Part shown: one piece after another, positions 16,314 to 41,768 of the stretch
Layout: every line of letters begins with the position of its first letter
Numbering within the stretch: position 1 is the stretch's first letter
Assembly (NCBI GenBank): GCA_903825305.1
Contig: CAIKAC010000023.1
Location: 146,464 to 210,463 of the forward strand
DNA from: an uncultured Actinomycetes bacterium
Lineage (GTDB): Bacteria; Actinomycetota; Acidimicrobiia; Acidimicrobiales; RAAP-2
Direction: 5' to 3'
DNA length: 64,000 nt
Notes under the pieces: model-generated
Seen by the model: only the letters and a program-made list of their open reading frames with translations
What the model was told of the DNA's origin: nothing
The model's database searches: none
Program-made: the position numbers and the translations under genes

Positions 16314-17933
16314 ATGTCCACGTACTCCGTCGAGATGTTCACTGAAGATGAACAGGCTGTCCTCAAGCCCTATTTTACGAACCTCGACCAGCCTGTGTTC
16401 GCCCTGGTCAACCTTCCCGAGGTGGTCAAAGGTGCGCTCTTTGCTCGCTACTCACGCAGCCCCAAGAGTTTGCGTCGCCTCTTCCTCGATGAATTTGTCG
16501 GTGACCTCGACCTCAGTGGAGACTTGAGTTTCGATGCGACTATTGGTCTTCGTCGAGCTGAAGAGCTCTACGAGAAGGTGTTCTTTGAATACGGAGATGA
16601 CTCGGTCGCTCAGCTCGGTGGCGTCCACCTAGCCTGCGAGCAAGCCTCGAACGTGCTCACCAAAGTCCTCGAGTGGGGACGTTTGATGAGCTATCTCGAG
16701 CAATCAACGCGCTATCTGAGCTACGACGCTCGGATGCCCAACGGCCACTATCGCTATTACCGGAGCCCCGAGATTCTCGATTCGAATCTGGGCGCTCGCT
16801 ACATCGGTGACATGGATCGAATTTTCGACTCGTACGCCGCCATGTTGCCCAAAGTGCAGCAGTGGCTAACCCAGCGCTATCCCCAAGAGCCAGGGGACTC
16901 GGATTTTGTTTATCGCCAAGCCATTCGAGCCAAGGCCTTAGACGCAGTTCGTGGATTACTCCCCGCATCGTCACTATCGAATGTTGGCATCTACGGTTCA
17001 GGGCAAGCCTATGAAATGCTGCTTCTGCGCATGAGGGCCCTTGCCTTGCCGGAGTCGCAGCGCTACGCCGACATGATGCTTGAAGAATTGCGCAAAGTGA
17101 TTCCGAGTTTCCTCCGTCGCGTTGACATCGCTGATCGCGGGGGAGTTTGGACTAAGTACTTCCAGGACACGCGATCTGATACGCAGCGTGTCCTTGAGCG
17201 GATTTGGCCCGATGCCCTCGCCCCGCAAGTGACCAGCAATGACGATGAGGTGCGACTCGTGGCCTTTGATCCCGAGGGCGAAGACAAGGTGCTCGCAGCC
17301 ATCGTGTTTGCTGCCACCCGGTTGTCAGAAGCAGAGGCGATGGAGCGCGTCAAGCGACTGAGTCACGAAGACAAAGTCGCCATGTTCCATGCCTATGTCG
17401 GGGAGCGAGAAAACCGTCGGCACCGCCCAGGACGCGCCTTCGAGCGCACTGATTACCGATTTGAACTAACGACTGACTATGGAGCGTTTCGTGACCTTCA
17501 GCGTCACCGCATGCTCACCGTGGATTGGCAGCCGCTCGATGTCTCACTGGGTTACGACATGCCTGCCGTCATCGAGGAAGCAGAACTTGATGTTGAGTAC
17601 GAAGAGACGATGGAGCGTTCACGTTCGCTCTACATCGATCTTGCTCGCACCATGCCCGAACAAGCCGGTTACGCAGTGAGCTTGGCGTATCGCATTCGCT
17701 ACGTGATGCAAATGAATGCGCGCGAAGCAATTCACTTGCTCGAGTTGCGCTCTGGCCCCCAAGGTCACCCTTCGTATCGACGCGTCGCCCAAGCCATGCA
17801 TCGCGAAATTGAGAACACGGCGAAGCATCGCGCTATCGCTGCCGCTATGAGTTTCGTTGACCACGGCGAGAGTGATTTGGAGCGACTGGAATCCGAGCGC
17901 CGAGCAGAGCAGCGTCGGCTTCGGGTCCTCTAG
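16314..17933 (+). CDS. tandem (two-domain) ThyX-related flavoprotein
   Basis: A 539-residue protein that is two ThyX-fold domains in a row; ordinary flavin-dependent thymidylate synthase is about 220-260 residues. ThyX makes dTMP from dUMP using FAD and methylenetetrahydrofolate. In domain 1 the signature RHRx7S is WGR(121-123)...S131 with Arg133 kept, so the RH pair is lost. In domain 2 it is R397-H398-R399 with the Ser and following Arg replaced by Pro407 and Asp409. Domain 2 keeps the later NAR and LR segments (MNAREAIHLLELR). Activity is therefore uncertain; the two domains may form composite sites. It is not at the mycobacterial thyX position (between dapB and dapA), and a canonical thymidylate synthase may exist elsewhere. 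Confidence 0.85.
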   Translation: MSTYSVEMFTEDEQAVLKPYFTNLDQPVFALVNLPEVVKGALFARYSRSPKSLRRLFLDEFVGDLDLSGDLSFDATIGLRRAEELYEKVFFEYGDDSVAQLGGVHLACEQASNVLTKVLEWGRLMSYLEQSTRYLSYDARMPNGHYRYYRSPEILDSNLGARYIGDMDRIFDSYAAMLPKVQQWLTQRYPQEPGDSDFVYRQAIRAKALDAVRGLLPASSLSNVGIYGSGQAYEMLLLRMRALALPESQRYADMMLEELRKVIPSFLRRVDIADRGGVWTKYFQDTRSDTQRVLERIWPDALAPQVTSNDDEVRLVAFDPEGEDKVLAAIVFAATRLSEAEAMERVKRLSHEDKVAMFHAYVGERENRRHRPGRAFERTDYRFELTTDYGAFRDLQRHRMLTVDWQPLDVSLGYDMPAVIEEAELDVEYEETMERSRSLYIDLARTMPEQAGYAVSLAYRIRYVMQMNAREAIHLLELRSGPQGHPSYRRVAQAMHREIENTAKHRAIAAAMSFVDHGESDLERLESERRAEQRRLRVL

Positions 17934-38393: not shown

Positions 38394-40057
38394 ACGCCGA
38401 CGATCACAGGCACGATCATGGCCTTGCGGCGCATTTTGGTGCCCACAAAGCGCCCCAGCGCTCGACGCGCAACTTTGGTGAGGGCGTCTTTGTCTGTGGC
38501 CGGATCCCGAAGGGCACTCCGCACCGCTGCAGCAACGGTTTCCACGCCCTCGGAGGCCAGCATTTGCTCTGCAGCTTCAGCTTTCCATCCACGAGTGATG
38601 ATCTCAGGTTCGGTGACGAGATCTCTTGCCTCGAGATCAACCGTTACCACCACCATCACGAGCCCTTCGGTGGCGAGCACCTGGCGATCTCGCAAGATGC
38701 CATGGTCCACATCGCCATCCGCACCATCGACATAGAGATACCCGGAGGGCACATGACCTTCGCTTCGAATGCCTCGCTCATCCAAGACGACAACGTCACC
38801 ATCTAGTGCCAGCAACGTATTCGACGAGGTCATACCCATCGAGTGGGCAAGTTGCCGATGATGAAAGAGGTGACGATACTCACCGTGGACGGGAACGAAA
38901 TACTCAGGTTTGGTAACACTGTGAAGTATGGAGAGTTCACCACGACGGGCATGGCCTGAAACGTGTACCGCATGGTTGCCTGAGTGGATGACTTCACATC
39001 CATGGCGGTGGAGTTGATCAATCACGCGACCCACACCCCACTCATTGCCGGGAATGGGATGCGCCGAGATCACCACTACGTCATGATCACTGAGTTCGAT
39101 GAAACGAGATTGCCCCGACGCCATAAGCGAGAGTGCCGCCATGGGCTCACCTTGGGATCCGGTAGAGATCACACAGATCTGAGATGGGTCGTAGTTATCG
39201 ATCGTCGTGATGTCAATCAACGTGCCCTCGGGAACGCTCAAGATGCCAAGCCTGCGCGCAAGCTCAACGTTATTTTGCATGGATCGGCCCAGGGTTGCCA
39301 CTTTTCGACCACACGACACGGCTGCGTCAACGATTTGCTGAATGCGGTGCAAGTGACTTGCGAAACATGCACAGATGATGCGCTTGTCCGTACGCGTTAG
39401 GAAAATACCCCGAAGTACGGCACCAACGTCCGTTTCTGAGGCGGTAAAGCCTTCTTCTTCTGCATTCGTTGAATCCGCCAACAGCAGGCGAATGCCTTTG
39501 GTGTTTGCCAATTCTCCGAAGCGTGCCAAGTTGGTTCTGCGGCCATCAACTGGTTGGAGGTCAATCTTAAAGTCACCTGAATGCAGCACCACGCCTTGGG
39601 GTGTGTGAAAGGCAATGGCATGTGCGCTTGGTACTGAGTGGGTCACCGCGATGAACTCGACATCGCAGGGTCCGATCCGCAACGTTTCCCCGTCAGCGAC
39701 TTCCACGAATTGTGCTTGATCAGACAAGCCAGCTTCTCGCACCCGATGGCTCGCAATTCCGATGGACAGTGCCGATCCATAGATCGGGGCCGAGAGGTCA
39801 CGCAAGAGATAGCTCAATCCGCCGACATGGTCTTCATGACCATGCGTGAGCACAATTCCATCAACGCGATCAGCATTCTCACGCAGGTATGTGAAATCCG
39901 GCAAGACGAGATCAACGCCGGGCATATCTGCTTCAGGGAACATGATGCCCACGTCGATAATGATCAAGCGTCCTGCTACTTCTATCGCAGCACAATTTCT
40001 GCCGATTTCGCCGAGTCCACCAAAAAATATGACCCGAAGGGCGTCCGCCTCAGCCAT
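38390..40057 (-). CDS. rnj: ribonuclease J
   Basis: Metallo-beta-lactamase-fold RNase with 5'-3' exo and endonuclease activity in mRNA decay and rRNA processing. The 555-residue protein has the HxHxDH signature as His72-Gly-His74-Glu-Asp76-His77, the beta-CASP domain with ADSTNAE and the C-terminal oligomerisation domain. ATG 40057 gives the normal N-terminus (FFGGLGEIGRN near residue 11) and overlaps the dapA end by 8 bases; a longer frame up to 40228 lies wholly within dapA. dapA-rnj is the mycobacterial order. Confidence 0.95.
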   Translation of the reverse strand: MAEADALRVIFFGGLGEIGRNCAAIEVAGRLIIIDVGIMFPEADMPGVDLVLPDFTYLRENADRVDGIVLTHGHEDHVGGLSYLLRDLSAPIYGSALSIGIASHRVREAGLSDQAQFVEVADGETLRIGPCDVEFIAVTHSVPSAHAIAFHTPQGVVLHSGDFKIDLQPVDGRRTNLARFGELANTKGIRLLLADSTNAEEEGFTASETDVGAVLRGIFLTRTDKRIICACFASHLHRIQQIVDAAVSCGRKVATLGRSMQNNVELARRLGILSVPEGTLIDITTIDNYDPSQICVISTGSQGEPMAALSLMASGQSRFIELSDHDVVVISAHPIPGNEWGVGRVIDQLHRHGCEVIHSGNHAVHVSGHARRGELSILHSVTKPEYFVPVHGEYRHLFHHRQLAHSMGMTSSNTLLALDGDVVVLDERGIRSEGHVPSGYLYVDGADGDVDHGILRDRQVLATEGLVMVVVTVDLEARDLVTEPEIITRGWKAEAAEQMLASEGVETVAAAVRSALRDPATDKDALTKVARRALGRFVGTKMRRKAMIVPVIVGV

Positions 40058-40964
40058 TGATGAGGCCGAGCTCAACACACAGGGCTCGAGCGGCTGCATC
40101 GAGGGCGGCATCGGCCTCCCCCATGGGCAACCGACACTGGCCGCCAGGGAGTCCCAACGCGCGCAATATGGCCTTCGTCGGAATAGGGTTCGGCCAGTCC
40201 AGTTGCGATTCGAAGCGATAGGACGCAAGCAGTCCTTGATTCATCGCCACCGCCTCTGCCAGATTCCCCGATACCAACGCTTCCATGGATGCTCCCATTT
40301 GGGCTCCCACCCAATGAGAAGCCACCGAAATCACGCCCACCGCCCCAACGCTCATTAACGGGATGATGAGTCCGTCATCGCCCGCATACACTTCGAAATC
40401 GCAACTGGCTTGGCGAATGAATTCCGCCGTCGAGGCCACGTCCCCCGCTGCATCTTTAAGCGCCACAATGTTGGCGTGAGATTTGGCCAAAGCGAGAACA
40501 GTCTCGCTTTCAATTTTTCGTCCCGTTCGAATGGGGATGTCGTAGAGCACGACGGGCAAGTCTGTAGCTTCAGCAATCGCGCCGAAGTGTCCGAGAAGTC
40601 CTCGTTGACTTGGCCGGTTGTAATACGGCGTTACCGCCAACACGCCAGCGGCACCAATGTCGCGCGCACGCTTCGTGAGGCCAACCGAGTGGGCCGTGTC
40701 ATTCGTCGTGGTGCCAGCCAATACCGGAACGGTGACCGAAGCCGCGACAGCCTCAATGAGATCCATGCGTTCTTCGTCAGTGAGCACCGGTGCTTCGCCA
40801 GTCGTTCCGGCCACGACGAGTCCATCCGAACCATTGGCGACCAACCACCGAGCCAGCGTGGCGGCTCCGTCCAGATCGAGCACGCCATTGCCGTCAAACG
40901 GAGTCACCATTGCGGTGAGGACGCGTCCAAATCGAGGGGTTGCAACAGACATCGTGCTGCTCAT
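40050..40964 (-). CDS. dapA: 4-hydroxy-tetrahydrodipicolinate synthase
   Basis: Condenses pyruvate and aspartate semialdehyde, the first committed step to diaminopimelate and lysine. The 304-residue TIM-barrel enzyme has the GTTGE motif (53-57), the catalytic Tyr141 (VVLYDIP) and the Schiff-base Lys170 (VALKDAAGD). Overlaps rnj by 8 bases. Together with dapB 30 bases upstream it begins the pathway completed by dapD, dapC, dapE and dapF 10-20 kb away. Confidence 0.95.
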   Translation of the reverse strand: MSSTMSVATPRFGRVLTAMVTPFDGNGVLDLDGAATLARWLVANGSDGLVVAGTTGEAPVLTDEERMDLIEAVAASVTVPVLAGTTTNDTAHSVGLTKRARDIGAAGVLAVTPYYNRPSQRGLLGHFGAIAEATDLPVVLYDIPIRTGRKIESETVLALAKSHANIVALKDAAGDVASTAEFIRQASCDFEVYAGDDGLIIPLMSVGAVGVISVASHWVGAQMGASMEALVSGNLAEAVAMNQGLLASYRFESQLDWPNPIPTKAILRALGLPGGQCRLPMGEADAALDAAARALCVELGLING

Positions 40965-40994: not shown

Positions 40995-41768
40995 TTACAC
41001 CAACAGCGAATCGATACCCCTGGTGAGACCCTTCAGTGAACTCACGTGGCGTACCGCAAGGACAACGCCTGCCATAAACGATGATCGATCCGTGGAATCG
41101 TGCCGGATTGAGAGCGTTTGGCCTTGGTCGCCGAGGATCACCTCTTCATGGGCAACAAATCCTGGAAGCCGAACGGAGTGAATGTGGATGCCTCCTGGAC
41201 CGAGCGCACCTCGTGCGCCCTCCAGTAGTTCTTGTTCAGTTGGATCCACTATCGGAGCGCACCCCGCCGCCTGGCGACTTTGGGCAATACGTTGCGCCGT
41301 TACTACGGCGGTTCCTGACGGAGCGTCGCGCTTCTCATTGTGGTGAAGTTCAATGATCTCAACCGAAGAGAAATGCGGTGCCGCAAGCGCCGCAAACTTC
41401 ATCAGCAGCACCGCCCCGATTGCGAAATTCGCAGCCACGATGGCAGCTGCGGAGCCTTCATCGCAGGCACGGGAAATGGCGTCAAAATCCTCCTCGCTCA
41501 GGCCAGTCGTGCCAGATACGACATGGATGCCTTGAGCCAAGAGAGCCGGAATGTGGTCGCGCGCAGCGCTTGCAATGGTGAAATCAATCGCCACATCAAC
41601 CTCGGGAAGGCCAAGGATTGAGTCGCTTCGATGTAGCGCATCAGGACCGGGGATAGTTGACGGGTTTTGGTCGATTCCAGCGACGAGCGTCAGGTCAGAA
41701 GACGCCTCGACTGCAGCTACGACTGCTCTTCCCATCTTGCCATTGGCACCTAGCACCGCTACACGCAT
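40995..41768 (-). CDS. dapB: 4-hydroxy-tetrahydrodipicolinate reductase
   Basis: NAD(P)H-dependent reductase that gives tetrahydrodipicolinate. The 257-residue protein has the nucleotide-binding GANGKMGRAV at 8-17, the catalytic segment ELHHNEKRDAPSGTA (His pair and Lys) and the GxxAPN-type segment replaced by a family-typical variant. The start ATG has TAGGGT 6 bases upstream. First gene of dapB-dapA-rnj. Confidence 0.95.
   Translation of the reverse strand: MRVAVLGANGKMGRAVVAAVEASSDLTLVAGIDQNPSTIPGPDALHRSDSILGLPEVDVAIDFTIASAARDHIPALLAQGIHVVSGTTGLSEEDFDAISRACDEGSAAAIVAANFAIGAVLLMKFAALAAPHFSSVEIIELHHNEKRDAPSGTAVVTAQRIAQSRQAAGCAPIVDPTEQELLEGARGALGPGGIHIHSVRLPGFVAHEEVILGDQGQTLSIRHDSTDRSSFMAGVVLAVRHVSSLKGLTRGIDSLLV

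Follow-up and report, generated by a model that had tools for sequence, protein, structure and literature searches.

A double-length ThyX from an acidimicrobial genome whose two domains keep complementary halves of the active-site residues

The flavin-dependent thymidylate synthase ThyX is essential in many microbes and is a drug target because it is absent from humans. The canonical enzyme is a homotetramer with four identical active sites, each of which draws on three subunits. Solved structures document how such a site is divided, and we use the residue numbers of Thermotoga maritima ThyX (R78, H79 etc.) throughout unless another protein is named. In the ThyX relative PolB with bound 5-Br-dUMP, one monomer makes contacts through F79, R82, H83, R86, and R193 and a second one through E94', S96', A97', R98', and R166' (PMC5003785). 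By our own spacing-based mapping, R86 and R193 of PolB correspond to R78 and R174 of T. maritima ThyX, and E94', S96', R98', and R166' correspond to E86, S88, R90, and R147. The site of M. tuberculosis ThyX is built from R95, H96, R97, and R199 of subunit A together with R87, Q103, S105, R107, and Y108 of subunit C (PMC6514825), and the ThyX of PBCV-1 shows the same division of the site over two monomers (PMC3498832). Of these residues, S88 and Y91 are critical to ThyX activity (PMC11940539).

The window, i.e., the whole stretch of 64,000 nucleotides of DNA that we analysed, contains an ORF on the forward strand that starts with ATG and encodes two fused ThyX (Thy1) domains. Its features are as follows:

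16314..17933, + strand: fused double ThyX gene, 539 aa (Pfam, genome search, AlphaFold2)
16371..17189, + strand: domain 1, ca. residues 20-292, ThyX fold, putative dUMP-side half-site (profile vs. 3gwc, M. tuberculosis ThyX, E 1.1e-16; model Z 12.9 to 3gwc_G)
16602..16613, + strand: domain 1, S97 (T55/S71 position) to Q100 (E58 position, lost); S97 in 149/149, Q100 in 121/122 where the E58 block lies in domain 2
16674..16715, + strand: domain 1, degenerate signature W121-G122-R123...E129-S131-R133-Y134; R78/H79 lost, E86, S88, R90, and Y91 kept
16950..16952, + strand: domain 1, R213 = R147 (dUMP phosphate); in domain 1 of 149/149, missing from domain 2 in 145/149
17238..17870, + strand: domain 2, ca. 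residues 309-519, ThyX fold, putative flavin-side half-site (Z 16.9 to T. maritima ThyX 5chp, rmsd 2.3 over 191 residues)
17433..17444, + strand: domain 2, R374...E377 (T55 and E58 positions), third block; 122/122 in the Actinomycetota-type lineage, 0/17 where the block lies in domain 1
17502..17510, + strand: domain 2, R397-H398-R399 = R78-H79-R80; 149/149
17715..17723, + strand: domain 2, N468-A-R470 (N163, R165), third block; 121/122 and 122/122 within its lineage
17748..17750, + strand: domain 2, R479 = R174; in domain 2 of 149/149, variable in domain 1 of divergent lineages

A previous sequence-only reading of this DNA had proposed two ThyX-like domains in one ORF, and both Pfam and structure prediction bear this out. 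Thy1 (PF02511) is the only Pfam match of the ORF and occurs in two stretches (128.5 bits in total vs. a cut-off of 24.8), with 71.1 and 54.4 bits for the single domains, which both pass the family cut-off. In a search of the genome with Thy1, the two domains fall at 16551-17108 and 17301-17816 of the window; the ORF is not a Pfam match to ThyA (PF00303), and it stays below the cut-off of the TIGR02170 thyX equivalog (50.4 vs. 87.9). AlphaFold2 models the whole fused protein with a pLDDT of 90.2 and a pTM of 0.89, and domain 1 alone with a pLDDT of 91.1. The ThyX fold is present in the models of both domains, with Z scores against solved ThyX structures of 16.9 for domain 2 and 12.9 for domain 1, compared with ≤5 for unrelated structures (VIA-align). 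A profile of domain 2 also matches the ThyX structures of T. maritima and M. tuberculosis (E about 1e-8); phmmer with the single fused sequence found no solved structure, and profiles were required. Because direct profile comparison of domains 1 and 2 gives only a weak match (probability 7.9%), their shared origin rests on each of them matching ThyX.

As a reference set, 51 single ThyX of the phylum were aligned with both domains. R78, H79, R80, S88, R90, R147, N163, R165, and R174 are invariant among them, and the signature is intact in 51/51. This last result is slightly circular for the signature (not for R147, N163, R165, and R174) because the set had been gathered with a motif filter, which caught 51 of 52 loci. 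Against this reference, R78 and H79 are missing from domain 1 of the ORF, and S88, R90, Y91, and R147 from domain 2. The individual residues listed by the sequence-only reading (W121-G122-R123...S131-x-R133-Y134 in domain 1; R397-H398-R399...P407-x-D409, N468-A-R470, and L478-R479 in domain 2) are correct. The complementary loss that it had read from them is confirmed by the alignment with the single ThyX and by the fused relatives, which have the same split throughout. R78, H79, R80, and R174 all lie in domain 2, and S88, R90, Y91, and R147 all lie in domain 1, in 149 of 149 fused proteins, and none of the 149 has all eight key residues inside one domain. Since every fused relative shares it, the split is neither chance nor error. 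Remnants of the lost halves are few, with H79 in 1 and R78 in 24 of the 149 first domains, and S88 in 5 and R90 in none of the second domains. E86 (E129 here) is likewise retained by domain 1 of the fused relatives. All counts exclude three single-domain ThyX (L041-L043), which are the ones with Gln at the E86 position. The sequence-only reading would have been refuted by motif residues that do not superpose or by two complete signatures, and the outcome supports it: the signature residues do align, and neither domain's signature is complete. H53, which is invariant in single ThyX, is an Asp in domain 1 of this ORF, and H370 of domain 2 may substitute for it.

The residues part along the line that separates two subunits in the solved structures. 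Domain 2 keeps exactly the set of the first monomer, and domain 1 keeps that of the second, including both S88 and Y91; as far as residue conservation can tell, one site shared between the two domains is strongly favoured.

The host genome (1.94 Mb, 97% complete, with its nearest relatives among the Acidimicrobiia) has neither ThyA (PF00303) nor any Thy1 gene besides the fused ThyX, which answers the check for thyA or a canonical thyX that the sequence-only reading had suggested. It also has no thymidine kinase and no DHFR, and it encodes both dCTP deaminase and thymidylate kinase. ThyX-dependent bacteria usually lack DHFR (PMC1971073). The place between dapB and dapA, already described as empty of thyX, is indeed so: dapB (40995-41768, - strand) adjoins dapA (40050-40964, - strand) with no thyX in between. 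Judged by gene content, the fused ThyX appears to be the only thymidylate synthase of this host, and this setting agrees with an inferred conversion of dUMP to dTMP with FAD, NADPH, and CH2THF.

Across the phylum, the fusion is present in 88 of 296 genomes (ca. 30% of the sample). Only three of these 88 have any match to PF00303 and only one a substantial match, which is interrupted. The fusion genomes avoid strong ThyA (Fisher's test, p = 0.0003, not corrected for relatedness), and 60 of them have neither PF00303 nor thymidine kinase. The latter is encoded by 26 of the 88, so salvage is possible there. In one fusion genome (G199:C39:1968-3886), the thyA match is in two parts (profile positions 1-176 and 172-266) about 1 kb apart, perhaps due to an intron, an intein, or an insertion. 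Separately, weak partial PF00303 matches (ca. profile positions 110-230) occur in many genomes of the phylum (G144, G155, G262, G176, G035, G068, and others), several of them with in-frame stops; these could be either a divergent type of ThyA or decayed genes.

With a probability of roughly 0.87, we read the protein as a working flavin-dependent thymidylate synthase that reconstitutes its active site between two specialised domains. What the data show are two ThyX domains with their modelled folds, a complementary split without exception, and a genome that lacks every other known way of making dTMP. The binding of FAD and dUMP, catalysis, the pairing of fused chains into a dimer, and the number of two sites are inferences without biochemistry behind them. 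The composite site that the sequence-only reading had raised as one option is strongly favoured by the match of the split to the known subunit boundary, by the retention of both halves in 149/149 relatives, and by the lack of any other thymidylate synthase found in the genome. An ancient ThyX duplication and fusion would have been followed by a division of labour between the domains, and two fused chains would assemble into a pseudo-tetramer. To each working site, domain 2 would supply the Arg/His side of the RHR motif (FAD phosphates and flavin) plus R479, and domain 1 would supply the substrate side (E129, S131, R133, Y134, and R213) for holding dUMP and for methylene transfer. The reciprocal sites, for which domain 1 would have to contribute RHR and domain 2 the Ser/Arg/Tyr loop, would be dead, so that two sites per dimer are expected instead of four.

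Could the protein instead be a non-catalytic or regulatory relative of ThyX, with dTMP coming from an unknown enzyme or from salvage? There is a precedent in the non-essential atypical ThyX of C. glutamicum (titles of PDB 3ge9 and 3fnn), and either domain by itself does lack some catalytic residues. However, in all 149 proteins each domain retains without exception what the other has lost, and a dead protein would not keep such reciprocal invariance. This explanation would also have to cope with a host genome without a second thymidylate synthase or a thymidine kinase, and with the absence of both PF00303 and thymidine kinase from 60/88 fusion genomes, and we regard it as quite improbable. A composite site could also belong to a methylase with a main product other than dTMP, e.g., a UMP methylase like PolB, which prefers UMP and uses the same contacts (PMC5003785), or a phage base-modifying enzyme, as the Mom-family genes close to two phage copies might indicate. 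In the bacteria that carry it, however, the fused ThyX is the only dTMP candidate, and one phage copy adjoins a dCMP deaminase gene, which makes such a product, if anything, a shade less probable again. The notion that a single domain is the enzyme and the other a structural leftover can point to domain 2, which resembles T. maritima ThyX more closely in fold (Z 16.9) and retains the NAR and LR segments, but is scarcely credible: in nearly all relatives S88, R90, and R147 are missing from domain 2 and H79 from domain 1, and nowhere among the 149 do the eight key residues come together in one domain.

Beyond these two halves, E58, N163, and R165 move as a unit among the fused ThyX. R165 corresponds to R190 of M. 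tuberculosis ThyX, which is supplied by a third subunit (PMC6514825). This block lies in domain 2 only in 122 fused proteins, whose domain 1 reads D95, Q100, and Q231; it lies in domain 1 only in 17 (H95, E100, N229, and R231 each in 17/17) and in both domains in eight phage proteins. The block states cover L033, L034, L038-L040, and L141-L163 and were read at residues 95, 100, 229, 231, 374, 377, 468, and 470 of the window's protein. Domain 2 alone carries the block in Actinomycetota and on a Parabacteroides plasmid, and domain 1 alone carries it in plasmid types of Bacillota and in one clade of phages. In a tree computed without the block columns, the latter state forms two separate groups and the former a single one (bootstrap 100), with the double-block proteins between them. 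These sequences show at least three one-sided losses of the block, which probably started from a double state.

If E58, N163, and R165 form the third-subunit part of the site at the adenosine side of FAD, which is an inference, then the different block-supplying partners of the lineages would follow from packing about either of two axes. It is conceivable, though we would sooner doubt than assert it, that a dimer of fused chains can assemble in two orientations and that lineages descending from a double-block ancestor, which could have functioned in both, fixed opposite ones and dropped the spare copy; the change of orientation itself is inferred. Should this be true, the flavin-dUMP interface would lie within one chain, and quaternary geometry would have switched after the fusion. 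S97 (T55/S71) is retained by domain 1 in 149/149 proteins, including those in which the rest of its block has stayed in domain 2, and this leaves the three-subunit geometry partly unexplained.

The fused relatives, whose identity runs from 79% down to about 21%, are found in Actinomycetota, on a plasmid of Parabacteroides (Bacteroidota), on Bacillota plasmids, and in phages including jumbo phages. In a tree of both domains and the single ThyX, the domain 1 copies form one group and the domain 2 copies another (SH-aLRT 99 and 100), so that a single fusion came before the dispersal among bacteria and phages. Alignment had been done group by group before merging, which somewhat favours the outcome of a single group per domain. 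Pfam annotation of neighbouring genes revealed no clear thymidylate operon around the phage copies, which are mainly accompanied by helicase and AAA genes; a copy on a Euzebya plasmid lies near dcd. The Parabacteroides distasonis plasmid record (L035, NZ_OY725790.1) carries an Actinomycetota-type fused ThyX of about 47% identity, which suggests transfer between phyla. A record titled Bifidobacterium breve (L110, CAMDSG010000010.1) includes a fused ThyX that shares 65% identity with the acidimicrobial one, and this MAG is probably misnamed. One genome with a listed contamination of 5% (G040) contains two full fused ThyX genes, G040:C71 and G040:C5, with 60% and 53% identity to the window's protein. 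The family is already catalogued, since RefSeq names relatives FAD-dependent thymidylate synthase, but the split itself is without a description that we could find: no paper on a fused, tandem, or duplicated ThyX or on the split came up, including for jumbo phages, Chlamydia, and Ma-LMM01 (subscription papers were not covered). Chlamydial ThyX may be long as well.

The fused family seems to be a pseudo-heterotetramer made and tested by evolution, in which each subunit role has been given to a separate domain. Unlike in a homotetramer, mutations can therefore be aimed at the FAD side or at the dUMP side of a site independently. The family, which occurs in ca. 30% of the sampled genomes of the phylum and in giant phages, is also a clear-cut example of domains that each lost, once fused, the part of an active site that the other retains.

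Canonical ThyX (PF02511, TIGR02170; T. maritima TM0449 and M. tuberculosis ThyX) shares the fold of both domains, each key site residue that we tested occurs once per fused chain, and the gene is likewise the only thymidylate synthase of its genome, with DHFR missing too. It differs in being a shorter protein (about 230 aa) with a single domain, and in having four equivalent sites and an unbroken RHR...SxRY signature, whereas the fused ThyX has two domains with half a signature apiece and falls under the TIGR02170 equivalog cut-off. PolB, a UMP/dUMP methylase of polyoxin synthesis (PDB 4p5a, 4p5b), has the ThyX fold and substrate contacts divided alike over two monomers (PMC5003785), but its site is intact in a single domain and serves an antibiotic pathway. 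The atypical ThyX of Corynebacterium glutamicum NCHU 87078 (PDB 3fnn, 3ge9) is another divergent actinobacterial protein with this fold, yet it has a single domain and is dispensable for thymidylate synthesis because ThyA is present. Closest in architecture are jumbo-phage and plasmid proteins of ca. 460-565 aa that carry the annotation thymidylate synthase (Tunturi_5 phage, Microcystis phage LMM01, Bacillus and Paenibacillus plasmids), which are fused and, where aligned, share the split (the LMM01 protein was matched by fold only), but are merely 21-33% identical and in some cases carry the third block in both domains or in domain 1 only. The protein described here is thus a member of the ThyX superfamily, and its most likely function is that of a ThyX with half the sites.
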